Positions 14,146-33,965 of a stretch of 38,311 nucleotides of DNA are shown here, piece by piece. The stretch lies in contig JAGWBT010000045.1 in NCBI GenBank assembly GCA_021295755.1, positions 1-38,311 on the forward strand, given 5' to 3'. The notes under the pieces are model-generated. The model made no database searches. It had not been told where the DNA came from and saw only the letters and a program-made list of their open reading frames with translations. This DNA is from Candidatus Poribacteria bacterium (GTDB lineage Bacteria; Poribacteria; WGA-4E; PCPOR2b). Positions within the stretch are counted from its first letter, which is position 1; the number at the start of each line of letters is the position of its first letter. The position numbers were made by a program, and so were the translations under genes.

Positions 14146-14685
14146 TCAACAAGCCTTGGGCTCAGAATTTGTATAATCCGCATGGTCAATGCACAGATCA
14201 ATTTTCCCAAGGTCAGACAGTTGAAAAACGTAGGCATCTTCACGATTGTCCATATAATATTTCTCCCGAACAGCAACAATCCGAAACCCAAATTGTCTGT
14301 AGAGATGCTGTGCCGGGTTATTGCTCACTCGCACCTCCAAAGAGACATGATTGCCCCCCAGTTTCCGGATATTTACAAGCGATTCTGCAAGCAGATATTT
14401 ACCAACACCTTGATTTCGATAATTGGGAGAGACAGCGAAGTTGGCAATATGCGCATCGTCTTCTACGACCCAGAAATTAATAAACGCAATCGGATTTTGA
14501 TCGTGGCGGCTGACCAGAAAGTAAACATGATGGCTTCCCGGTCTCAGTCCATCACGAAACGAGGCTTCCTCCCACGGACAGGAAAACGAACTTCGTTCAA
14601 TCTCCATTACTGCCGGCAGATCGCTTTCCTGCATGCAATCAACCCGAATCTCTGGGAACGGCAGCTTTACTTTAATGCGTTTCAA
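14146..14685 (-). CDS. rimI: GNAT N-acetyltransferase, RimI-like
   Basis: A 179-residue GNAT-fold acetyltransferase matching RimI, which acetylates the N-terminus of ribosomal protein bS18. Visible are MEIERSSFSCPWEEASF, the acetyl-CoA-binding NYRNQGVGKYLL loop (Q-x-x-G-x-G/A), LEVRVSNNPAQHLYRQFGF and REKYYMDNREDAYVF. The start is TTG at 14685-14683, supported by GAGGAG nine bases upstream. The next gene on this strand (SAM hydrolase) begins 48 bases after the stop, so the two are probably co-transcribed. A tsaB neighbour, common for rimI, is not present in the window. Confidence 0.88.
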   Translation of the reverse strand: MKRIKVKLPFPEIRVDCMQESDLPAVMEIERSSFSCPWEEASFRDGLRPGSHHVYFLVSRHDQNPIAFINFWVVEDDAHIANFAVSPNYRNQGVGKYLLAESLVNIRKLGGNHVSLEVRVSNNPAQHLYRQFGFRIVAVREKYYMDNREDAYVFQLSDLGKIDLCIDHADYTNSEPKAC

Positions 14686-14754
14686 ACTGTACTTCTCCTC
14701 TTTTTCACAGAGGCTTGCTCGCTTGCTCCGTATCTGCCTCCACTTTTTCCGTCC

Positions 14755-14784
14755 TTGATTCGACCTTCGAGCATCTGCTATAAT
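14755..14784 (+). promoter_or_regulatory. Promoter of the Gfo/Idh/MocA gene at 14815
   Basis: TTGATT (14755-14760) and a perfect TATAAT (14779-14784) are separated by 18 bases. The start would be near 14791, followed by AAGGAG (14801-14806) and the ATG at 14815. It lies in the divergent gap with rimI. Confidence 0.5.
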
Positions 14785-14814
14785 ATCTAAAGTTCAATTT
14801 AAGGAGATGAACGA

Positions 14815-17144: not shown

Positions 17145-18809
17145 ATGCAAACACTATTGTGCCGAAGAGTCCCTGCCAAAGACGGAGCAAATCTTGCTAC
17201 AGATGTTTATCTCCCCGACGGTCCTGGACGGTTTCCCACTGTTATTGTTCGCACTCCCTACCATCGCGTCGGTCTTCAAGGCACAGCATATCAGTTCACG
17301 CAGCGAGGTTATGCATTTGTCGCACAGGATTGCCGTGGCAAGTACGATTCCGACGGTGTTTTCGTACCACTAGTTGATGAGGCTCGTGACGGACAAATGA
17401 CGTTAGATTGGACGGCAAATCAGCGATGGTGCAACGGCCGAATTGGGTTGTGGGGACGCAGCTATCTCGGAATTGTTCAAGTGCCGGCGGCAAGCGGTGG
17501 TCATGAGGCATTGCGCTGTATCGTCCCTTCTGTCGCACCCGGTTCATTCTTCCGTGATTGGATTCGTTACGATGGCTGCTTCGCACTCGGCAACGCCATT
17601 CGATGGTCTCTGACGCACGCTTCTTGTCGCAATCAACCACCAATGGCACACCTCTCATGGGACAAACTTAACCACCTGTCCAATCCTAAGGCGATCGCCG
17701 GTCAAGCCGGCTTTGAGACACCCGTTCTGTCGGATTGGGCAACTCACGATCATTATGACGACTATTGGAAATCAATCGATCAATGTTTGATACACCCGCG
17801 CATCAGGGTGCCGGGATTTCATGCTGGCGGGTGGTTCGACCATCTCACGCGGGGGCAGTTTGAGGCTTATCAAAACATCCGGGACAGTGGTGCGACAGAA
17901 TTAGCACAAAGCGGGCAACGTCTTCTAATTGGACCGTGGGGGCATAGAAATATCGGAAACACCGGACCAGACCACTGTCGTTACGGCGACTGGGATTTCG
18001 GAACGGAAGCAGATATGTCGGTTCTTGCACATGAACTTCAGTTTCTTGATTTTCATCTAAGAGAAATAGACAACGGTTACACAAGCCAACTACCTGTGAA
18101 AGCGTTTCTGATGGGAGAAAACCGATGGCTTTCCTTGCAAGATTGGCCCCCACCAGAAACAACGAAGCAGTCGTGGCATCTCAAATCGGATGGCAGTGCA
18201 AACATGCGAACCGGTGACGGGGCACTGACACAAGAACCCCCGGCTAAGAGTGCTAGTGATAGTTACATCTACAATCCACGTGATCCGGTCCCGACACATG
18301 GAGGTCCCGTCTATTGGGGACTTGAACACCTCGGTCCTGTTGACCAACGTCCAATACTTGATCGGTCTGATCTACTCTTTTATCGAAGTCCCAAACTTGA
18401 ATCGCCGTTGACCGTAGTCGGCGAGGTGACACTTGATCTCTGCATTTCCAGCGATGCTGTCGATACCGATTTTGTTGCTAAACTCTGTGTTGAAGAAGCC
18501 TCTGGTGCTGTGACCTGTCTGACGATTGGCTCACTGCGGTGTCGCTACCGTGAAAGTTGGGCGGATCCTCAACCACTCGCATCAGGCGATATTCCCCATA
18601 TCCGCTTGCAGATGGGACAGATTGCCTATGTGTTTCCAGTTGGTTCGCGGATCTGTCTGCTTATCACTAGCAGCGACTTTCCCCGTATCCTCCCGCATCC
18701 GAACACTCTAGCACCACCATGGTCAAAGACCGAACCGGTTATTGCCCGTAACACGGTTCATCACGGCAAAGGACATCTGTCGCGTCTAAATCTGTCAGTG
18801 ATTGAATAG
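17145..18809 (+). CDS. CocE/NonD family hydrolase (peptidase S15-like)
   Basis: A 554-residue serine hydrolase of the CocE / X-Pro dipeptidyl-peptidase family. The catalytic triad can be read as Ser106 (GLWGRSYLGI), Asp232 (HAGGWFDHLTRG) and His267 (LLIGPWGHRNI), matching the family order. The N-terminal alpha/beta-hydrolase domain (DGANLATDVYLP, VIVRTPYHR, FVAQDCRGKYDS) is followed by a C-terminal jelly-roll domain (from about 400). There is no signal peptide, so it is probably cytoplasmic. TAGGAAAAA precedes the ATG. Members cleave esters or amides, including acyl side chains; the substrate is unknown. No partner gene is adjacent on the same strand. Confidence 0.92.
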   Translation: MQTLLCRRVPAKDGANLATDVYLPDGPGRFPTVIVRTPYHRVGLQGTAYQFTQRGYAFVAQDCRGKYDSDGVFVPLVDEARDGQMTLDWTANQRWCNGRIGLWGRSYLGIVQVPAASGGHEALRCIVPSVAPGSFFRDWIRYDGCFALGNAIRWSLTHASCRNQPPMAHLSWDKLNHLSNPKAIAGQAGFETPVLSDWATHDHYDDYWKSIDQCLIHPRIRVPGFHAGGWFDHLTRGQFEAYQNIRDSGATELAQSGQRLLIGPWGHRNIGNTGPDHCRYGDWDFGTEADMSVLAHELQFLDFHLREIDNGYTSQLPVKAFLMGENRWLSLQDWPPPETTKQSWHLKSDGSANMRTGDGALTQEPPAKSASDSYIYNPRDPVPTHGGPVYWGLEHLGPVDQRPILDRSDLLFYRSPKLESPLTVVGEVTLDLCISSDAVDTDFVAKLCVEEASGAVTCLTIGSLRCRYRESWADPQPLASGDIPHIRLQMGQIAYVFPVGSRICLLITSSDFPRILPHPNTLAPPWSKTEPVIARNTVHHGKGHLSRLNLSVIE

Positions 18810-23662: not shown

Positions 23663-24805
23663 ATGAAGATTACGAATATCAAAACCTTTATGGCCCGCTT
23701 CGGCGGACGCTCAAGAGGACTGATTAAAGTTGAAACTGACGAAGGCATTCACGGCTGGGGCGAATCCTACTCCGTAGGACCGAACCTCGCTGCTGAACCC
23801 ATTGCGGATTATATCTTTGAGATGATTAAGGGAGAAGATCCACGCCGCATCGAATACATCATGATGAAGATTCACCAGCAATTACGCTTCCCTGCTGGCG
23901 GTGTGGGTCTCGCAGTTACCTCCGCAATTGACCACGCTTTGTGGGACATCAGCGGTAAAGCAGCCAACCTTCCTGTCTATATGCTCCTTGGCGGGTCCGT
24001 CCGCGATCGCATCCGTGTCTATCAAGGAGTCGGAGGCCGTGATGGGCAGGAAGCCGGTGAAACAGCACATCGATTAAACGAAGAGGGGGGCTTTACAGCT
24101 TTCAAAACCAGCCCTTATCCGATCGAGCCGGATGCAAATCGTTGGGGACGAGTTTGTGCTGCCGCTGCTGACTATTTTGAGGGGATTCGCGACCATACAC
24201 CGGACGATTGGGAGTTCGCGTTCGACCCACACGCTAAGATCTTTGAACCAATTCGTGCATTGCAGCTATCCAATGCGCTAGCACCTTATGACCCCTATTT
24301 CTACGAAGAACCGCTCAGACCCGAACACATCCCCGCATGGTCTCGCTTACGTTCTCAGATGCAAGTACCATTGGCAACCGGCGAATCTCTCTATGCACGT
24401 TTCGAATTTCTCAACCTGATGGCTGCACAAGGGGCAGACATCATTCAGCCGGACGTCTGCGTCTGCGGTGGATTGCTCGAAATGCGCAAAATCGCCGCTA
24501 TTGCCGAAGCACATTATGTCTCCATTGCCCCCCACAATCCGATGGGACCTTTGGCGACCGCGGTGAACGTGCACTTTGCTGCAGCAACGCCCAATTTCAA
24601 GGTTCTCGAATACATCTCGCCGACAGGAACTGAATGGAATGAGTGGGTGGATGAACCCTATCTGCCCAAAGATGGGTATCTTGAATTGCGCGATCGGCCA
24701 GGTCTCGGTGTGGATATAAATGAAGACGTCATCGGCGATAACGAATATGTCCACTGGCAACGCACCTGCCCGATTCGTCCAGATGGGTCAACGGGATATA
24801 TTTAG
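23663..24805 (+). CDS. Mandelate racemase / enolase-superfamily dehydratase, galactonate-dehydratase-like
   Basis: A 380-residue enolase-superfamily enzyme with an N-terminal capping domain (about 1-125) and a barrel. Expected metal ligands are Asp188, Glu215 and Glu241; His190 (FAFDPHAK) and His291 (IAPHNPMGP) with Asp264 (QPDVCVCGG) fit the general acid/base pattern of D-galactonate dehydratase (DgoD) and related sugar-acid dehydratases. Glu316 (LEY) closes the site. The expected reaction is dehydration of an aldonic acid to a 2-keto-3-deoxy acid. The exact sugar acid cannot be assigned. It has a strong promoter with operator-like palindromes. No kinase or aldolase for the product is next to it. 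Confidence 0.92.
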   Translation: MKITNIKTFMARFGGRSRGLIKVETDEGIHGWGESYSVGPNLAAEPIADYIFEMIKGEDPRRIEYIMMKIHQQLRFPAGGVGLAVTSAIDHALWDISGKAANLPVYMLLGGSVRDRIRVYQGVGGRDGQEAGETAHRLNEEGGFTAFKTSPYPIEPDANRWGRVCAAAADYFEGIRDHTPDDWEFAFDPHAKIFEPIRALQLSNALAPYDPYFYEEPLRPEHIPAWSRLRSQMQVPLATGESLYARFEFLNLMAAQGADIIQPDVCVCGGLLEMRKIAAIAEAHYVSIAPHNPMGPLATAVNVHFAAATPNFKVLEYISPTGTEWNEWVDEPYLPKDGYLELRDRPGLGVDINEDVIGDNEYVHWQRTCPIRPDGSTGYI

Positions 24806-25342: not shown

Positions 25343-25669
25343 ATGTCTCAGTTTGTGAAAGCTGCCGAGACAACGGACGTTCAGCCCGGTGATTGTCTCG
25401 GTGTTAAGGTCGAAGGCGTTTTCATCGGTATATACAATATCGATGGCGACTATTACGCGATGAATAACATCTGTCCGCATCTTGGTGGAGTTTTGACCTA
25501 CGGATTCTTTGATGATAACGCTGTTACTTGTCCGCTCCACATGTGGGAGTTTGATGTGAAGACAGGAAAATGCCTCTGGCCAGAGCAGGAGAAACTCCCC
25601 ACGTATCCTGTAAAGATTGAGGGCAACGATATTCTTGTCGATGTCAATTCACCCCAGCCCCAACAATAG
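25343..25669 (+). CDS. Rieske [2Fe-2S] ferredoxin
   Basis: A 108-residue soluble Rieske protein. The cluster motif is Cys-Pro-His (CPHLGG) followed after 16 residues by Cys-Pro-Leu-His (CPLHMWEFD), supplying two Cys and two His ligands. Length and the EFDVKTG segment resemble ferredoxin components of aromatic-ring dioxygenases and NirD-like small subunits. There is no membrane anchor. No oxygenase alpha subunit or reductase lies nearby, so its electron partners are unknown. It has its own promoter. The PhyH enzymes in the window do not normally need a ferredoxin. Confidence 0.93.
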   Translation: MSQFVKAAETTDVQPGDCLGVKVEGVFIGIYNIDGDYYAMNNICPHLGGVLTYGFFDDNAVTCPLHMWEFDVKTGKCLWPEQEKLPTYPVKIEGNDILVDVNSPQPQQ

Positions 25670-25793
25670 AGAAGTAAAGCAGGGATATAACGAACATAGC
25701 GGTGTTTACGCACTACGCATCGGAATATCTCTCTGCCTCACTGATTTTCTCACCAACCACAGAAAGGAAATGATCTAAGAGGAGTTGAAGTCT

Positions 25794-26712
25794 ATGGCAT
25801 ATTTGATAACAGGTGGAATGGGGTGCATTGGATCCTATGTCATTCGTGACCTTCTGAACGCCGGCGAAAAAATTGTTGTGTACGATTTTATTCCTGATTT
25901 AACCATTCCCAAAATGGTGTTGACAGAGGACCAACTTGAACAGTTTACTTTCGTTCAGGGGGACATTACCGATCTCCCGCATGTGTTGCGAACGGTCCAA
26001 GAGCACCAAATCGATCGGATTATCCATCTCGCATCGTGGCAGGTGCCAGCGTGCGATGCCAACCCACCACAAGCGTTAAAGATTGTATGTGAAGGCACAA
26101 TTAATATGTTTGAGGCAGCGCGCATTTTCGGCCTCAAACGGGTTGTCTGGGCAAGTAGTGTCGCAGTCTTCGGATCGCCGGAAGATTATAATCACGAGCA
26201 GATTGCAAATGAAGTCCATGAATGAGAGATATGCAGCGCACTATTTTGATAACTACGGTGTAGACACGATAGGATTGAGATTTACCGCGGTATACGGTGT
26301 CGGACGGACACGGGGAATGAGTTCATTCTCAACGCAAATGATTGAAGCTGCTGCACATGGGAAACCCTACGTTTCTCCATTCGGCGATGATGCGATAGAT
26401 TGGCAATACGTCGAGGATGTGTCCAGATCTATTGTGATGTCGTGTACCTGTCCAGCCACAAAGACGCGTGTCTTCAACGTCAAAGGTGGAATTCGCACGG
26501 TTAAGGAAGGTGTCACTTACTTAAAGAAATTGGTGCCCAGTGCACAGATTACGCTTGAGCCGGGCGTGTTTGGAATTTCATGGGATTATGATGCGGATCC
26601 AATCGCTCAAGAGGTCGGGTTCACACCCCAATACACCATGGAGCAAGGGATCTTGAAGACGCTCAATCATTTCCGTGAGTTGGCAGGATCGGACCCGATT
26701 CAGGAACCGTGA
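25794..26712 (+). pseudogene. NAD-dependent epimerase/dehydratase, frameshifted by an internal deletion
   Basis: An extended-SDR protein encoded in two frames. The first part, from ATG 25794 (GAGGAG upstream), has the nucleotide-binding ITGGMGCIGSYV, GDITD, HLASWQ and VVWASSVAVFGSPEDY, then ends at TGA 26223-26225. The second part continues the fold in another frame from Lys codon 26212 (KSMNERYAAHYF...) through GLRFTAVYGVGRTRG and WQYVEDVSRSIV to 26712. In intact relatives about 20 residues, including the catalytic Tyr of Y-x3-K, sit between these pieces; here only the Lys side remains. The missing DNA is not a multiple of three. Neither product should be catalytic. A misassembly is the alternative. 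An upstream TTG (25785) is not the start. Confidence 0.85.
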
Positions 26713-27202: not shown

Positions 27203-27328
27203 GAGAGTGTGTGAAGCCTATTTTAGTAGTTGCGGCGCAGAACCTGTCCTCGATTCAATCGGGATTCCTAACTTGGAGATGGCCGGTGATTTAGCCACAA
27301 CCAACCTATAACCATGGGAGATCACAAA

Positions 27329-28405
27329 ATGAAGCTAGGCGCATTTATGATGCCGCTGCACCCCCCGGACAAAGACCGGACGGAGTGTTTTGAAGAGGAC
27401 ATCGATTTAATTGTCCTCGCTGATGAATTGGGATTTACCGAAGCTTGGATTGGGCAGCATCACACGGTCGCCTGGGAACCCATTCCATCTAACGATGTGT
27501 TTATCGGCAACGTCCTACCGCGCACGAAGAACATCCGCCTCGGCACCGGTGTGTCTATCATCCCCCAGCACCACCCGGTCAACACCGCGGTTCGCCTTGC
27601 GTTTCTTGATCATCTCGCTCGTGGCCGTCTGAATTGTGGATTTGGGCAAGGCGGGGTAGCAACTGACTGGGGGCTATTCGACTTACCTGATCCCAAAACG
27701 CAGGGGCTGATGACCATGGAGGCAATTGACACCATCCTCAAGTTGTGGCAAACGGACCCACCCTTCGAGTTCAACGGGGATTTCTGGAATATCAAACTTG
27801 AAACCCTCGATCACGAACGTGGAATTGGAGTACTGCTCCAACCTTACCAAAAACCGCACCCACCGATCGCTATGAGCATTGTAAGAGGAAACTCGATGGC
27901 AGCCCGGACAGCGGGTCAACGCGGCTTTATACCTATAAGCACGAACCTTGTATCAGAGGTAACCCTTGCAAATCATTGGGAAACCTATTGCGCCGGTGCT
28001 GAAGACGCTGGACTGCCCACACCGAACCGATCAGACTGGCGCATCTCGCGCAGTATCTTTGTCGGAGAATCGACTGAAGAAGCATGGGAGCACGCAATAA
28101 ATGGGAGTTTTATCGGTGCATATGATTACCTGATCACTGTTCTTACAAAAGCAAATATGCTCAATATTCTGAAAGATGATCCGGATTTCCCCGATGAGGA
28201 TATAACGCCAGAATATGTTCTTAAGAAAATCTGTATCATCGGTGATGTGGCAGAATGTATCCGTCGTCTTGAAGAGGTGTGGGAACAGTCCGGTGGATTT
28301 GGCACACTGCTGATGATCACACATGATTGGGATGACAGAGATACATGGAGACGTTCCCAAGAGTTGCTAGCGAGTGAGGTTATTCCTGCGATGCCAACAA
28401 TTTAA
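27329..28405 (+). CDS. Luciferase-like (LLM-class) flavin-dependent monooxygenase
   Basis: A 358-residue TIM-barrel enzyme of the bacterial-luciferase superfamily. Typical segments are KLGAFMMPLHPP, LADELGFTEAWIGQHH, RTKNIRLGTGVSIIPQHHPV and LDHLARGRLNCGFGQGG, which build the F420/FMNH2 site. ATG 27329 has GGGAG 8 bases upstream; ATG 27314 is an alternative. The next gene, 18 bases downstream, is a flavin reductase, which suggests FMNH2 rather than F420 as the reductant. Substrates of relatives include alkanals, sulfonates, chelators and polyketides. The target compound is unknown. Confidence 0.92.
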   Translation: MKLGAFMMPLHPPDKDRTECFEEDIDLIVLADELGFTEAWIGQHHTVAWEPIPSNDVFIGNVLPRTKNIRLGTGVSIIPQHHPVNTAVRLAFLDHLARGRLNCGFGQGGVATDWGLFDLPDPKTQGLMTMEAIDTILKLWQTDPPFEFNGDFWNIKLETLDHERGIGVLLQPYQKPHPPIAMSIVRGNSMAARTAGQRGFIPISTNLVSEVTLANHWETYCAGAEDAGLPTPNRSDWRISRSIFVGESTEEAWEHAINGSFIGAYDYLITVLTKANMLNILKDDPDFPDEDITPEYVLKKICIIGDVAECIRRLEEVWEQSGGFGTLLMITHDWDDRDTWRRSQELLASEVIPAMPTI

Positions 28406-28423: not shown

Positions 28424-28915
28424 ATGATGGCGTTCGATCCGATGCTTCAAAGGCAGATTATGGGCCGTTTCGCAACTGGGGTCACGGTAGTGACAACGCG
28501 GTATGGCGAACAGATTTCGGGAATGACGGCAAACGCTGTCATGTCTCTTTCGCTTGACCCGCCGCTAGTCGTGGTTTCTGTAGACCATCAGAGCAATATG
28601 CACGGACACTTGACGCAAGGTCAGTGTTATGCAATAAATGTGCTCAGACACGACCAAGAGGATCTTTCCCGTCGGTTTGCCAAACCAGGGCCCAAGGATT
28701 TTTCAGACCTAAATCTGACAGTGGCAGAAACCGGGGCTCCCATTTTCGTTGACGTACTCGCTTATATAGACTGCCGGGTTGTTGAGGTAGCACCCGCCGG
28801 CGATCACGATATGTTCATTGGCGAACCCGTTGCCGGTGAAACTTACGATGGCGAGCCACTTATCTTCTATAGTGGACAGTATGCCCAATTGGAGGTCGCA
28901 CCAACAACCTCCTAG
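28424..28915 (+). CDS. Flavin reductase family protein (FMN reductase component)
   Basis: A 163-residue flavin reductase-like domain protein (split-barrel fold). FATGVTVVTT, SGMTANAVMSLSLDPPLVVVSV and CYAINVL are the family hallmarks; the later GDHDMFIGEPV supplies the conserved His/Asp region. AAGGAGGAG precedes two consecutive ATG codons (28424 and 28427). It is probably the NAD(P)H:FMN reductase that feeds the upstream LLM monooxygenase, forming a two-component system. A hairpin at 29096-29114 (ATCCCGG / CCGGGGAT) lies downstream but lacks a T run. Confidence 0.93.
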   Translation: MMAFDPMLQRQIMGRFATGVTVVTTRYGEQISGMTANAVMSLSLDPPLVVVSVDHQSNMHGHLTQGQCYAINVLRHDQEDLSRRFAKPGPKDFSDLNLTVAETGAPIFVDVLAYIDCRVVEVAPAGDHDMFIGEPVAGETYDGEPLIFYSGQYAQLEVAPTTS

Positions 28916-29200: not shown

Positions 29201-30478
29201 ATGGAAAAGGTTCCAATCTGCCTAGTGGGTTGTGGTGGTATGGGGCATCGCCATGTCATGGGGTATAAAGAACTGAAGGACAGCGGCATCGGCAACCTCG
29301 ATTTAATAGCTGTCTGCGATATTCGACAGGAGAACGCAGAATTGGTGGCGAACGAAGCCGGGCATCTGCTTGGTAGAAGACCGATGGTTTTCACCGATCT
29401 AGATCAGGTCCTCGCTCACCCAAATATCGCAGCTGTTGATGTCGTTACGGACGGTTCAACCCATCACGCGGTCGGGGTGCCGGCACTTGAGGCGGGAAAA
29501 CATACAATGGTTGAAAAACCGTTGGGGATTACGATACGTGCCTGTCAAGCAATGATTGACGCTGCTCAGCGCAGCGGTGCAATACTCGCAACGGCGGAAA
29601 ATTATCGCCGGGACACGCCCAACCGATTGGTACGAGCGATTATTGATGCAGGGTTGCTAGGCGATCCTTACCTTATGATCCAGACCTCTCTCGGAGGTGG
29701 CGATACCATGGCTATCACCCCTTGGCGACACCTCAAGGAGAAAGGTGCGATCGGCTTAGACATGGGGGTTCATTACGCTGACATTATCCGCTACTATATG
29801 GGTGAATATAGCGGGATTTTTGGCCGGGGACTTATCGTTGAACCTGTGCGCCGCAAGCCAGACCATGCGGATCATCCGCTAATTTCCTACCGGGAACGCG
29901 TCAAGAGTTACCCGGACAGCGTAGAAGCGACCGGTGAGGATTCAGTGATTGCGCTGTACACAATGGAGTCAGGGGCTATTGTTCAACTCTCATATGTTGG
30001 CGGCGGACGTGGCAGTCAAGGCTGGGAACGGAGTGTTCACGGCCGCTGGGGCGCTGTGTATGCCCCCGGAGAACGTAACGGCAATCCGGTGGTGCTGCGT
30101 TTGGAGGGCCGGGAACTAAAGGGAAAAGAGATTCTATCGCTTCTGCCTCAATTTGAACTCAACGAAATAACGGAACGCTTTTTTGGCAAAGGGGGCGTTG
30201 AATATGAACCACCAGTAGACGCGCCTGAGCCCGGAATCGCGGTTGATGCCAAACATCTAGCCATTGAATACCACGATTTCGGTCAGGCAATCCGCAACGG
30301 AACAAATCCCGAAGTGGATGGTGAAGGTGGTATGAAAGCGGTTGCTGCAATAGTTGGGGCATACGAATCTGCTCTGGCTAAACGCTCCGTGAGCATGGAA
30401 AGTGTATTGTCCGGTGAGGTACGGGAGTACCAAGTGGACATTGATGCAGCACTAGGACTTGATACACCCGTGAATTAG
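29201..30478 (+). CDS. Gfo/Idh/MocA family oxidoreductase (3)
   Basis: A 425-residue oxidoreductase. The dinucleotide-binding ICLVGCGGMGHRH opens the Rossmann domain, VEKPLGITIRA carries the catalytic Lys, and GAIGLDMGVHYADIIRYYMGE carries the Asp/His pair. It is longer than the usual 330-380 because of a segment after about 210 (RKPDHADHPLISYRERVK). AAGGAG stands 9 bases before the ATG. It starts a five-gene run with short gaps (40 bases to the cupin gene). Substrate unknown. Confidence 0.92.
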   Translation: MEKVPICLVGCGGMGHRHVMGYKELKDSGIGNLDLIAVCDIRQENAELVANEAGHLLGRRPMVFTDLDQVLAHPNIAAVDVVTDGSTHHAVGVPALEAGKHTMVEKPLGITIRACQAMIDAAQRSGAILATAENYRRDTPNRLVRAIIDAGLLGDPYLMIQTSLGGGDTMAITPWRHLKEKGAIGLDMGVHYADIIRYYMGEYSGIFGRGLIVEPVRRKPDHADHPLISYRERVKSYPDSVEATGEDSVIALYTMESGAIVQLSYVGGGRGSQGWERSVHGRWGAVYAPGERNGNPVVLRLEGRELKGKEILSLLPQFELNEITERFFGKGGVEYEPPVDAPEPGIAVDAKHLAIEYHDFGQAIRNGTNPEVDGEGGMKAVAAIVGAYESALAKRSVSMESVLSGEVREYQVDIDAALGLDTPVN

Positions 30479-30518
30479 ACATTTTCAATCAACCACCCAT
30501 TTTGAGGAGGAGAAAACC

Positions 30519-31172
30519 ATGGGTTTCACGGTCTATGATTGTCGTAAAGACATCCGCAATATCTTGGTGACCCCGCAGATACGTGCCCGTTTTTGTCGCA
30601 TGGAGCCGGGACCAGGCTCGCTTGATAAGTATCACACCCACGATTTGGGCCATGAGATCTTTATCATTCTGTCGGGACGGGTAGAATTCAGGATCAACGG
30701 CGAAACCAAAGAGCTAGGCCCGGGACAAATGTGCTATGCCCTCGCGGACGAGCCTCATTCGGTGCGAGTTCTTGGGGATGAACCGGTGTATATGTATCTC
30801 TCAGTGACACCTCATATCCAACCGACTCACACCCAGTATGCTGACGATGGGGAACGTCTCCCGCCCCAGTTCAGACCGTCCAGCGACTATGACACGGAGA
30901 CAGATTCTACCACGCCGATTGACGCGCTTATTGACCATCATGTTGGTACAGCGCGATCGGTGGCGGACATGGCGCAGAACAGCGCCCAGATCCAAGAGCA
31001 GATGGCGGCTGCCCTCAAACAGGCGTTATCATCGGGGGACGAGAAAGCTGCTGCTGAGATACGAGATGTCATGTGGGAACCTCTGTTAGAGACTTTCAAA
31101 AAGGTCAATGAAATGGCCGCAGAATGGAACACACTTACCCCACGAGCAGGAACACTTCGCACTTATCGTTGA
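30519..31172 (+). CDS. Cupin-domain protein with helical C-terminal extension
   Basis: A 217-residue protein. The N-terminal cupin barrel (about 1-110) shows a full metal site: His39, His41 and Glu46 (KYHTHDLGHEIF) with His80 (ADEPHSVRV), the usual 3-His/1-Glu pattern. The rest (about 130-205) is alpha-helical and Gln/Ala/Glu-rich (SVADMAQNSAQIQEQMAAALKQ), possibly a dimerisation helix. GAGGAGGAG precedes the ATG. The position between two Gfo/Idh genes points to an isomerase, dioxygenase or small-molecule-binding role in the same pathway. Function not assignable from sequence. Confidence 0.85.
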   Translation: MGFTVYDCRKDIRNILVTPQIRARFCRMEPGPGSLDKYHTHDLGHEIFIILSGRVEFRINGETKELGPGQMCYALADEPHSVRVLGDEPVYMYLSVTPHIQPTHTQYADDGERLPPQFRPSSDYDTETDSTTPIDALIDHHVGTARSVADMAQNSAQIQEQMAAALKQALSSGDEKAAAEIRDVMWEPLLETFKKVNEMAAEWNTLTPRAGTLRTYR

Positions 31173-31204
31173 AGTGTGTCGCCTGAAAAATGGAGGGAAA
31201 CAGT

Positions 31205-32287
31205 ATGTCAACAGTACGAATTGGCGTTGTTGGATGCGGTGCAATCGCTCAAGTCCAACATCTTCCCAACTTGCTTGAACTTGACGATGAATTTGAAGTG
31301 CCTATCGTCTGCGACGTGTCACCGGGACAGGCAGAATATGTGGCTCGCAGGTTCAAAGTTCCCCAGTATGTCACCGATATTCGCGATATGCTAGCGGCAG
31401 ACATCGACGCGGTACTGCTCTGCCATACGGATCCCAAGACTGAGGCAGCGGTACAAGCCTTTGAGGCGGGAAAGCATGTTTTCATCGAAAAGCCCATCTG
31501 TACCTCCTTGCAGGAGGCCGATGCGATGATCGATGCAATGCGAAAATCGGGGAAGGTTGGCCAAGCGGGATACATGAAGGTATACGAACCAGCCTTTGAG
31601 ATGGCGAAACGCGAAGTTGATACGATGGACGATATTAAATTTGTGCAGACCAATCATCTGCATCCGAGCAATGAGCTCCACCTGAGCCATTTCAAGGTCA
31701 AGCGGTTCAATGATCTGCCGCCCGCTGCCATGATGGAACGGCAGGAAGCATCTAGAGCCGCACGGCGCGAAGCGTTTGGGAATCTCTTTGAGAAGGCTGA
31801 ATCTTGCGGCATCGCCTACGGTCTCATCCACGACCTTTACAGCCTACGAACTATGCTAGGTGTACCGAGCGCCGTCATCAGCACAGAAATTTGGAACGAC
31901 CGCCGAGCTATAACAACTATCTTGGAATATCCCAACGGAGCGCGTTGCGTCGTCAGCCGAGTAGATCTCAACAAGTTGTGGGATTTCAAGCAGACCCTTG
32001 AGATCTACAGCGAAGCCAAGCGGGTCATCCTCTCGTACCCAACCGGCTTTTCGCGTCGGGTGCTTACAAAGTTGGTCGTGCAGGGTATTGACGAGGAAGG
32101 TAACAGTTTCTACAAGGAACCAGCAATTCCGTGGGACAGCGGGTTTACCCGCGAGCTGCTCCACCTCCGCGAGTGTATCACCCAAAGCACCCCTTCGCGC
32201 TCTTCACTCGTAGATGCGCGGGACGATATTGCGCTCATCATCGACATCACCAAAGCGTATATTACCCGGTCGCCCGTCTATCGATAA
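31205..32287 (+). CDS. Gfo/Idh/MocA family oxidoreductase (4)
   Basis: A 360-residue oxidoreductase with IGVVGCGAIAQVQHLPNL at the start and the EKP motif in VFIEKPICTSLQEAD. The central part has an unusual basic, Met-rich helix (AMMERQEASRAARREAF) where relatives hold a glycine-rich active-site loop. GGAGGG lies 8 bases before ATG 31205; ATG 31190 would overlap this site and is rejected. It follows the cupin gene by 32 bases and precedes the VOC gene by 12, so all are probably one transcript. Confidence 0.9.
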   Translation: MSTVRIGVVGCGAIAQVQHLPNLLELDDEFEVPIVCDVSPGQAEYVARRFKVPQYVTDIRDMLAADIDAVLLCHTDPKTEAAVQAFEAGKHVFIEKPICTSLQEADAMIDAMRKSGKVGQAGYMKVYEPAFEMAKREVDTMDDIKFVQTNHLHPSNELHLSHFKVKRFNDLPPAAMMERQEASRAARREAFGNLFEKAESCGIAYGLIHDLYSLRTMLGVPSAVISTEIWNDRRAITTILEYPNGARCVVSRVDLNKLWDFKQTLEIYSEAKRVILSYPTGFSRRVLTKLVVQGIDEEGNSFYKEPAIPWDSGFTRELLHLRECITQSTPSRSSLVDARDDIALIIDITKAYITRSPVYR

Positions 32288-32299
32288 GGAGGATAAACG

Positions 32300-32707
32300 A
32301 TGGATGCGAGCCTTTGGAATATCGGTATCAAGGTGGAGGATCTGGATGCGGAGATCGGCTTTTTTGAGGAATTGGGCGCCAAACTGTTAAGTCGTGGCTC
32401 ACGCATTAGGGAAGATGGAGCACATCCCCATGCGTTGCTGGAGTTCGGTGGAACCCGCCTCTTTCTGACCCCGAAACCGGTCTTTCAGGAGGCGCTCAAC
32501 CATCCGCTCATGCCCGGACTGACTCACGCGGTGTTTGAGGTCGATGACTTGGACGAGGCATACCAACGACTTATCGCGTTAGGCACGGAAGTGCTCCTAG
32601 AACCGGTGGAGATTAGCACCGATTTTGGGTCACGCCGAATCTCTTTTTACAGATCGCCCAACGGTCTTGTCTTTGAGGTGATGCAGATTATAGAATCGAA
32701 GGTGTAG
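32300..32707 (+). CDS. VOC-family (glyoxalase/dioxygenase-fold) protein
   Basis: A 135-residue vicinal-oxygen-chelate protein made of two beta-alpha-beta-beta-beta modules. Module 1 starts with WNIGIKVEDLDAEIGFFEELGAKLL and includes HPHALLEFGGTRLFL; module 2 has THAVFEVDDLDEAYQRLIALGTEVL and ends with SPNGLVFEVMQ. AAGGAGG is 6 or so bases before the ATG. VOC proteins act as isomerases, lyases or dioxygenases with a divalent metal; the Glu of VFEV is a likely ligand. It lies between a Gfo/Idh gene and a PhyH gene in a tight run. Reaction unknown. Confidence 0.88.
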   Translation: MDASLWNIGIKVEDLDAEIGFFEELGAKLLSRGSRIREDGAHPHALLEFGGTRLFLTPKPVFQEALNHPLMPGLTHAVFEVDDLDEAYQRLIALGTEVLLEPVEISTDFGSRRISFYRSPNGLVFEVMQIIESKV

Positions 32708-32744
32708 TTTATTCGTCACCTTTGAAGCGAAAGGAAAACGAACT

Positions 32745-33965
32745 ATGCAAGTCAATCCACAACAGCTGCTTGACGATGGCTATATCATTCTGCGCGAGGT
32801 CATTCCGCCGGGGCAGCTAGAAGAACTGCGCGACTGTTTCGAAACGCTAGTTGAGCGGCAGAAGGTCATCTGGACGGAGGAACGCCAACCTGACGATCCA
32901 CCGGGAGGCTATTGGGAAACCGCAGCGCAACCGCGTGTATTCTTCGATGGTGTCGCTGACGAGACAACCGCTAAAGCGGTGGAGTTTTGCTTGCACGAAA
33001 ATACTTTGGGCGTCAGCCGCCAACTGATGCAGGCACCGGAGGCTTCCCCAACACTGATGGCTCTGATGTGCAGCCCGGTGCGAGATCATGGACCTGCCAA
33101 CTGGCATCGCGATATTGATCCCGTTACACAGGCACCTCTACGGGGTATGCAGATGGATGTGATTGACAATGCACCGGCTTACGTCCAATGGAACATCCCC
33201 CTCTATGATGACAGCGTATTTTGGGTCGTGCCGAAAAGTCACAAACGCCCTAACACAGAAACGGAAAATGACCACTTGGCGACAAAGGGACGGGAGCCAA
33301 TACCGGGTGGGATGCCGGTGGAACTTAACGCCGGTGACGGTATCGTCTATATCCACATGATGCTGCACTGGGGAAGTAACTACAGCCCAAAGTTACGGCG
33401 GACGGTGCATCTTGGTTATCGCTCTTTCGGCGGTCCTATTTATCCCTTGGTCAACCACTTCTACTGGCATCCGGATTTCACGACGCGCATGCCGCAAGAG
33501 ACACGAGAACGGTTTAAGCATTTCTATCAACTACACGAACAACAGTGTGATGTGATTGAATCCACTTTCCGCGCCATCCTCGCTAAAGATGCGGAGGCAT
33601 TCCGCAATGGACTTGTGACACTTCATCCCGGCGAAGCATGGCGGATGGTATGTGTGGTCTATCTATCCAAATTGGTGGAAAAAACGCACACATTGAAACA
33701 GTCGAATGTCGCTAACCTACCGTTTGAGGAGCGTGTGGCTGCCATCTCGGAGCACCAGCTCAATTTCTATCTGTTCGAGGACTTTTCTCGCCGCTTCTCG
33801 GCAGAGGAGGCTGACCTACTTTGGAATCGGTTTCGGACGCTTTATGATAAAATGCAGGAGGAGATAGACCGGTCTGTTCCTAACTTGGAGTCTCGACAGG
33901 ACCGGTTATTGCTGACTGACATGCCCGCTGATTTCGATGTGGAGGACTTTATCAATAGTTGGTAG
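32745..33965 (+). CDS. Phytanoyl-CoA dioxygenase (PhyH) family protein, long form
   Basis: A 406-residue Fe(II)/2-oxoglutarate oxygenase. The iron triad can be read as His121 and Asp123 (NWHRDIDPV) and His208 (MMLHWGSNYSP); Arg218 or Arg219 (KLRRTVHLGYR) would bind the co-substrate. VPKSHKRPN (162-170) fits the core fold. The C-terminal third (from about 245) is a helical extension lacking in the shorter PhyH at 2634. AAAGGAAAA precedes the ATG. It ends the five-gene run; a cluster of palindromic repeats follows at once. Substrate unknown. Confidence 0.9.
   Translation: MQVNPQQLLDDGYIILREVIPPGQLEELRDCFETLVERQKVIWTEERQPDDPPGGYWETAAQPRVFFDGVADETTAKAVEFCLHENTLGVSRQLMQAPEASPTLMALMCSPVRDHGPANWHRDIDPVTQAPLRGMQMDVIDNAPAYVQWNIPLYDDSVFWVVPKSHKRPNTETENDHLATKGREPIPGGMPVELNAGDGIVYIHMMLHWGSNYSPKLRRTVHLGYRSFGGPIYPLVNHFYWHPDFTTRMPQETRERFKHFYQLHEQQCDVIESTFRAILAKDAEAFRNGLVTLHPGEAWRMVCVVYLSKLVEKTHTLKQSNVANLPFEERVAAISEHQLNFYLFEDFSRRFSAEEADLLWNRFRTLYDKMQEEIDRSVPNLESRQDRLLLTDMPADFDVEDFINSW

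Follow-up and report, generated by a model that had tools for sequence, protein, structure and literature searches.

Gene content and organization of the locus

Poribacteria are uncultured bacteria whose best-known habitat is sponges. We analyzed positions 1 to 38311 of contig C45 from the Candidatus Poribacteria metagenome-assembled genome (MAG) G000 (38,311 nt, hereafter the window), and specifically five neighboring genes on its forward strand. They code for a Gfo/Idh/MocA dehydrogenase (GfoA, 29201 to 30478; Pfam GFO_IDH_MocA), a cupin (30519 to 31172; Cupin_2), a second Gfo/Idh/MocA dehydrogenase (GfoB, 31190 to 32287; GFO_IDH_MocA), a VOC-fold protein (32300 to 32707; Glyoxalase, 3e-10), and a long-form PhyH Fe(II)/2-oxoglutarate oxygenase (32745 to 33965; PhyH, 5.6e-9). 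The first-pass annotation had described five co-directional genes at 29201 to 33965 with gaps of 12 to 40 nt, and the open reading frames (ORFs) are indeed found there; its family labels also stand, with all five Pfam calls exceeding the curated cut-off. Taking the ORFs as called, the successive spacers are 40, 17, 12, and 37 nt. Because homologues of GfoB begin at its sixth residue, the start of this gene is probably 31205, which would leave 32 nt between cupin and GfoB. Ribosome-binding-like sequences (AAGGAG or GGAGGAG) precede GfoA and the cupin. Compared with the congeneric genomes G003, G004, and G005, the five genes have dN/dS ratios of 0.04 to 0.09 (dS of about 0.5 to 1.6) and are therefore real, functional genes under selection.

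These genes close, on its 3' side, a longer array of ten genes on one strand, which begins at 23663 and is subject to purifying selection over its whole length (dN/dS, 0.02 to 0.14). The first half consists of a sugar-acid dehydratase of the MLE/enolase superfamily, similar to galactonate dehydratase (MLE, 23663 to 24805; MR_MLE_C, 8e-56), a Rieske [2Fe-2S] ferredoxin (25343 to 25669; Rieske, 6e-20), an SDR NAD-epimerase/dehydratase with a broken frame (25785 to 26712), a luciferase-type flavin mononucleotide (FMN)-dependent monooxygenase (LLM, 27314 to 28405; Bac_luciferase, 2e-37), and its partner flavin reductase (28424 to 28915; Flavin_Reduct, 3.5e-42), all on the forward strand. MLE scores 274.8 bits against the galactonate dehydratase model PRK14017 (cut-off, 311) and is thus not an equivalog. 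The epimerase gene is split into two ORFs and is ca. 38 nt shorter than its counterpart in G005, an intact ORF of 321 amino acids whose residues 1 to 143 and 156 to 321 are matched in two frames by the window; the break is either a true pseudogene or an assembly error of the MAG.

Conservation and gene loss within the genus

The ten genes are found in the same order in G003, G004, and G005. The search for the five-gene order in other genomes, proposed by the first-pass annotation, was thus positive in three congeners, but it is a weak test, given the collinearity of almost the entire window between them. Over the stretches compared, collinearity with G001, G003, G004, and G005 extends to nearly all of the 28 window genes tested (those of G003 and G004 stop before the last genes), i.e., conservation of gene order at the genus level is background. 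Against this collinear background, the array is a region where the genomes of the genus differ. LLM, flavin reductase, cupin, and GfoB keep their order in all six species, and the Rieske ferredoxin is also present in the six; MLE is syntenic in five, the contig of the sixth (G002) starting beyond its position. GfoA and PhyH, on the other hand, are jointly present in four species and jointly absent from two, G001 (a single-contig genome, also devoid of the VOC gene) and G002. Neither genome has an orthologue of GfoA or PhyH anywhere, the best matches being 46% (GfoA) and 52% (PhyH). In G002, a stretch of ca. 90 nt that runs from the upstream side into the cupin gene matches the 3' end of GfoA and the spacer that follows it at 75% identity, and this decayed remnant beside the cupin indicates that GfoA was deleted. 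The stable core is a two-component FMN monooxygenase (LLM and flavin reductase) joined to the cupin-GfoB pair.

Gene modules outside the genus

Outside the genus, the genes part into modules: cupin-GfoB, LLM-flavin reductase, and PhyH with a DUF6807 gene after it. The cupin gene adjoins GfoB in G011, G014, and G016, from one other family, and in G066, from a further family of the class (families f4 and f7), with identities of 47 to 54%; the two are not linked in those loci of family f3 that we examined. Over 85 genomes, 59 carry both, 17 neither, 7 only GfoB, and 2 only the cupin (Fisher P = 1.5e-10, or 2.3e-4 within the order, values uncorrected for relatedness). In G007, of the sister genus, the cupin and VOC genes are still in place with a remnant of GfoB (its last 43 residues) between them, so that the cupin-GfoB-VOC order predates the genus. 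The flavin reductase adjoins LLM throughout the genus (six species) and also in G007, G014, and G006 (contig C24). The neighbors of the pair vary, with HxlA-HxlB in G007, TylF in G014, and AtuA with its ferredoxin and a VOC gene in G006, where LLM, flavin reductase, and VOC are contiguous. The PhyH orthologue precedes a DUF6807 gene in nearly every family f3 genome examined, and it was detected as well in G009 and G012, both without orthologues of cupin and GfoB. The PhyH-DUF6807 loci of family f3 also have, in their vicinity, additional PhyH genes and genes for an NADH-dehydrogenase-like protein and an MFS transporter. In plasmids, searches for relatives of LLM, GfoA, GfoB, cupin, and PhyH retrieved no comparable cluster in the regions examined, and cupin and PhyH relatives were almost absent from the plasmids searched.

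This distribution bears on the proposal that the five genes make up one dedicated pathway, which we now regard as very unlikely. Their order and spacing are the same in G003, G004, and G005, all under purifying selection, yet nearly the entire window is collinear in these genomes, in G001 and G002 the cupin and GfoB persist although GfoA and PhyH are missing, and PhyH has its own conserved neighbor (DUF6807) elsewhere in the taxonomic order and occurs where cupin and GfoB do not. The outcome that the first-pass annotation had named as contrary to its idea, a different conserved neighbor elsewhere for each gene, was found for PhyH and not for cupin-GfoB. In short, it identified the genes correctly, and no recognized pathway fits them, as it had said, but the boundary that it drew around five genes was wrong. 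At the opposite extreme, cupin-GfoB and LLM-flavin reductase could be the only functional units, the rest being independent neighbors kept by background synteny. The collinearity of nearly the whole window in four other species and the variable surroundings of LLM, PhyH, and VOC elsewhere fit this explanation. We nevertheless consider it improbable, given the short gaps of 12 to 40 nt with ribosome-binding-like sites before GfoA and the cupin, the cupin-GfoB-VOC order, which is older than the genus, and the contiguity of LLM, flavin reductase, and VOC in G006.

As for the flanks, a glycerol kinase (GlpK, above cut-off) is divergent from MLE, and genes for a histidine kinase and an NtrC-type regulator come next; a convergent TPR protein gene lies 3' of the array. 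A scan for promoters and terminators gave counts about equal to those of shuffled sequence and provided no operon boundary; one promoter-like site (11 of 12 positions) was located 5' of MLE. Elsewhere in the window, a peptidase S15 (17145 to 18809) is the sole other tested gene, beside GfoA, VOC, and PhyH, missing from the collinear region of G001. A 202-amino-acid ORF without a Pfam match (14182 to 14790) has 63 to 67% identity to sequences in G001 and G005 and is unmatched in the G003 and G004 stretches.

Predicted activities of the array proteins

Active-site residues are conserved in four of the five genes. Both dehydrogenases have the NAD-binding domain, the EKP motif, and the catalytic His/Asp region of the Gfo/Idh/MocA family. 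In GfoA, E105-K106-P107 and D187-x3-H191 are invariant in 13 homologues and, in GfoB, E100-K101-P102 and H214-D215 in 20. Gfo/Idh enzymes produce ketones from sugar and polyol alcohols. The closest orthologues of GfoA (88 to 92%) were found only in G003, G004, and G005, the next best match being 46%. In G001 and G007, a GfoB homologue (62%) adjoins an MLE gene of the galactonate-dehydratase-like type. Among solved structures, the nearest relatives of the two proteins include DgpA and glucose-fructose oxidoreductase. GfoA and GfoB score 91.8 and 86.5 bits against the IolG equivalog (TIGR04380; cut-off, 355) and 88.4 and 46.9 bits against that of LgdA (NF052479; cut-off, 650). Being so far below both cut-offs, they rule out the inositol (iol) and levoglucosan (Lgd) pathways.

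The cupin has the complete 3-His/1-Glu ligand set (H39, H41, E46, and H80, invariant in 28 homologues), as the first-pass annotation had noticed. Its structural model (mean pLDDT, 79.7) was recognized by Foldseek as a cupin fold and ends in a C-terminal helical hairpin. In the VOC protein, E48, H76, and E126 are present. The first metal ligand of this fold is usually a His, but here the position is occupied by N7, also in the six homologues compared and in G007, so the metal site may be incomplete.

PhyH has the facial triad (H121-x-D123 and H208) and the distal Arg (R218/R219) invariant in 32 homologues. Its model (mean pLDDT, 91) gave as best Foldseek matches the Fe(II)/2-oxoglutarate enzymes EvdO1, TlxIJ, SnoN, and AviO1. 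By sequence, the single protein matched no solved structure at an E value of 0.001, and a profile retrieved weak matches only. The expansion of the PhyH family in Poribacteria has been reported before, with functions predictable in some cases only, e.g., PhnY-like (Kamke et al. 2014, PMC3909097). The window PhyH is one member of this expanded and mostly uncharacterized family, with 12 matches in its own genome; no close relative of the long form was found among solved or curated proteins. Since its fold neighbors are tailoring enzymes, and an epimerase and a Rieske ferredoxin are located upstream, the locus might instead be biosynthetic and tailor a secondary metabolite or glycan. We give little credence to this alternative: no scaffold synthase, glycosyltransferase, or methyltransferase appeared among the window genes with Pfam matches, and the neighbors include a sugar-acid dehydratase and a glycerol kinase.

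The closest solved relative of LLM in profile searches is 3,6-diketocamphane 1,6-monooxygenase (217.7 bits, positions 2 to 355, full length), a match that favors oxygenation of a ketone and supports a predicted role in which the adjacent reductase provides FMNH2. Scores were much weaker against dimethyl-sulfide monooxygenase (39 bits) and alkanesulfonate monooxygenases (24 to 33 bits), which discards LLM as a dimethyl-sulfide or methanesulfonate monooxygenase. A second LLM, 65% identical, is present in the window genome (contig C170), near PhyH and 3-hydroxyisobutyrate-dehydrogenase-like genes. In G007 (contig C265), genes for HxlA (3-hexulose-6-phosphate synthase) and HxlB (6-phospho-3-hexuloisomerase), both above equivalog cut-offs, are directly 5' of an 87% identical LLM and its flavin reductase; a DUF4432 gene is found nearby on the opposite strand. 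Of 59 genomes, only 7 have an HxlA above its cut-off, and LLM at ≥87% is carried by these same 7. These data could mean that LLM-flavin reductase is a demethylase or C1-releasing monooxygenase, the array degrading a methylated compound (a methyl sugar or methylated solute) with HxlA-HxlB fixing the formaldehyde. We find this unlikely. Phylogeny confounds the co-occurrence, LLM is distant in solved-structure comparisons from the enzymes that act on dimethyl sulfide and methanesulfonate, and its more distant relatives adjoin AtuA or TylF instead. Besides, HxlAB of the window genus is located elsewhere, unlinked to the array, among MacB-type transporters, an amidohydrolase, and an FAD oxidoreductase; in the window genome itself (contig C78, 7385 to 8585 of stretch L237), it lies between MacB/FtsX-type transporter genes and the amidohydrolase.

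Proposed function and comparison with known systems

The reading that we favor, although tentatively, is that of a modular array for oxidative catabolism, specific to a single poribacterial genus, whose 3' part consists of the five genes and in which GfoA and PhyH are accessory. It builds on the gene content, the intact active sites of most members, the purifying selection, and the behavior of the modules. The family assignments agree with the oxidative enzymes of sugar or polyol type anticipated by the first-pass annotation and, as it had indicated, no described pathway was matched in the libraries and papers searched. The reactions, their order, the substrate, and the catabolic role are predictions that run as follows. 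GfoB (and GfoA where present) would oxidize a sugar, polyol, or other cyclic secondary alcohol to a ketone with NAD(P). The flavin reductase would supply FMNH2 to LLM for oxygenation of this ketone, probably to a lactone by a Baeyer-Villiger reaction. The cupin, together with VOC, might isomerize or open an unstable keto or lactone intermediate, and MLE, if it acts in the same route, could dehydrate the resulting sugar acid. GfoA and PhyH would add an accessory step that widens the substrate range, PhyH hydroxylating a substrate variant by means of Fe(II) and 2-oxoglutarate. The succession from alcohol to ketone, lactone, and sugar acid is suggested by the ketone formation typical of Gfo/Idh enzymes combined with a diketocamphane-like LLM.

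Several observations weigh against this proposal. There are gaps of 537 nt before the Rieske ferredoxin, ca. 600 nt before LLM, and 285 nt before GfoA, and the layout does not fix the number of transcripts. No member reaches the equivalog cut-off of a described pathway, and sequence similarity near 25 to 40% does not fix a substrate. The linked transporter that the first-pass annotation suggested looking for did not appear among the window genes scanned, and the fold-nearest Fe(II)/2-oxoglutarate enzymes of PhyH are biosynthetic. Finally, the joint loss of GfoA and PhyH may be a single event in sister species: in the tree, whose root is not resolved, G001 and G002 stand apart from the remaining four species (support, 0.90), and one or two loss events are thus possible.

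The array looks like an uncharacterized route for sugar or ketone breakdown rather than a new self-contained five-gene system. The most novel possibility, which we see as a long shot, is a poribacterial pathway in which Gfo/Idh enzymes produce a keto-sugar or keto-polyol and a flavin monooxygenase of the type II Baeyer-Villiger class lactonizes it, cupin-GfoB being a dedicated module. The literature searched contained no carbohydrate route of this type (Gfo/Idh ketone plus Baeyer-Villiger lactonization), and among open-access papers none joined PhyH, cupin, and Gfo/Idh, and a single unrelated one joined Gfo/Idh and cupin. Poribacteria have many PhyH and Gfo/Idh genes without an assigned role, and the sets that travel together (cupin-GfoB, LLM-flavin reductase, and GfoA with PhyH) are testable units of their metabolism. 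A compact order in one genome should not be taken as one pathway where congeners are collinear anyway.

Among known systems, the levoglucosan pathway of Bacillus smithii (lgdA-lgdB1-lgdB2-lgdC; PMC7676230) likewise uses Gfo/Idh/MocA-type dehydrogenases at two steps, LgdC being annotated as such. However, its lgdB1 and lgdB2 encode sugar phosphate isomerase/epimerase proteins, a domain not found among the array genes, and its four genes include no flavin monooxygenase, cupin, or PhyH (PMC7676230). DgpA, an enzyme of C-glycoside oxidation (PDB 7xr9 and 9m3d), ranks first or close to first among the solved relatives of GfoB and GfoA, but the match covers mostly the NAD-binding domain, and sugar phosphate isomerase-type partner genes were not seen in the array. 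Another related system is the type II Baeyer-Villiger enzyme 3,6-diketocamphane 1,6-monooxygenase of Pseudomonas putida (PDB 4uwm; PMC4631483), which LLM resembles over its full length and which is its sole solved relative at this distance. As in these two-component FMN systems, a separate, adjacent, and conserved flavin reductase gene is present (28424 to 28915), the coupling being predicted. Camphor-pathway genes are not nearby and, unlike in the diketocamphane system, LLM is associated here with Gfo/Idh and cupin genes. The arrangement is undescribed yet ordinary in kind, a modular catabolic array built from known enzyme families.

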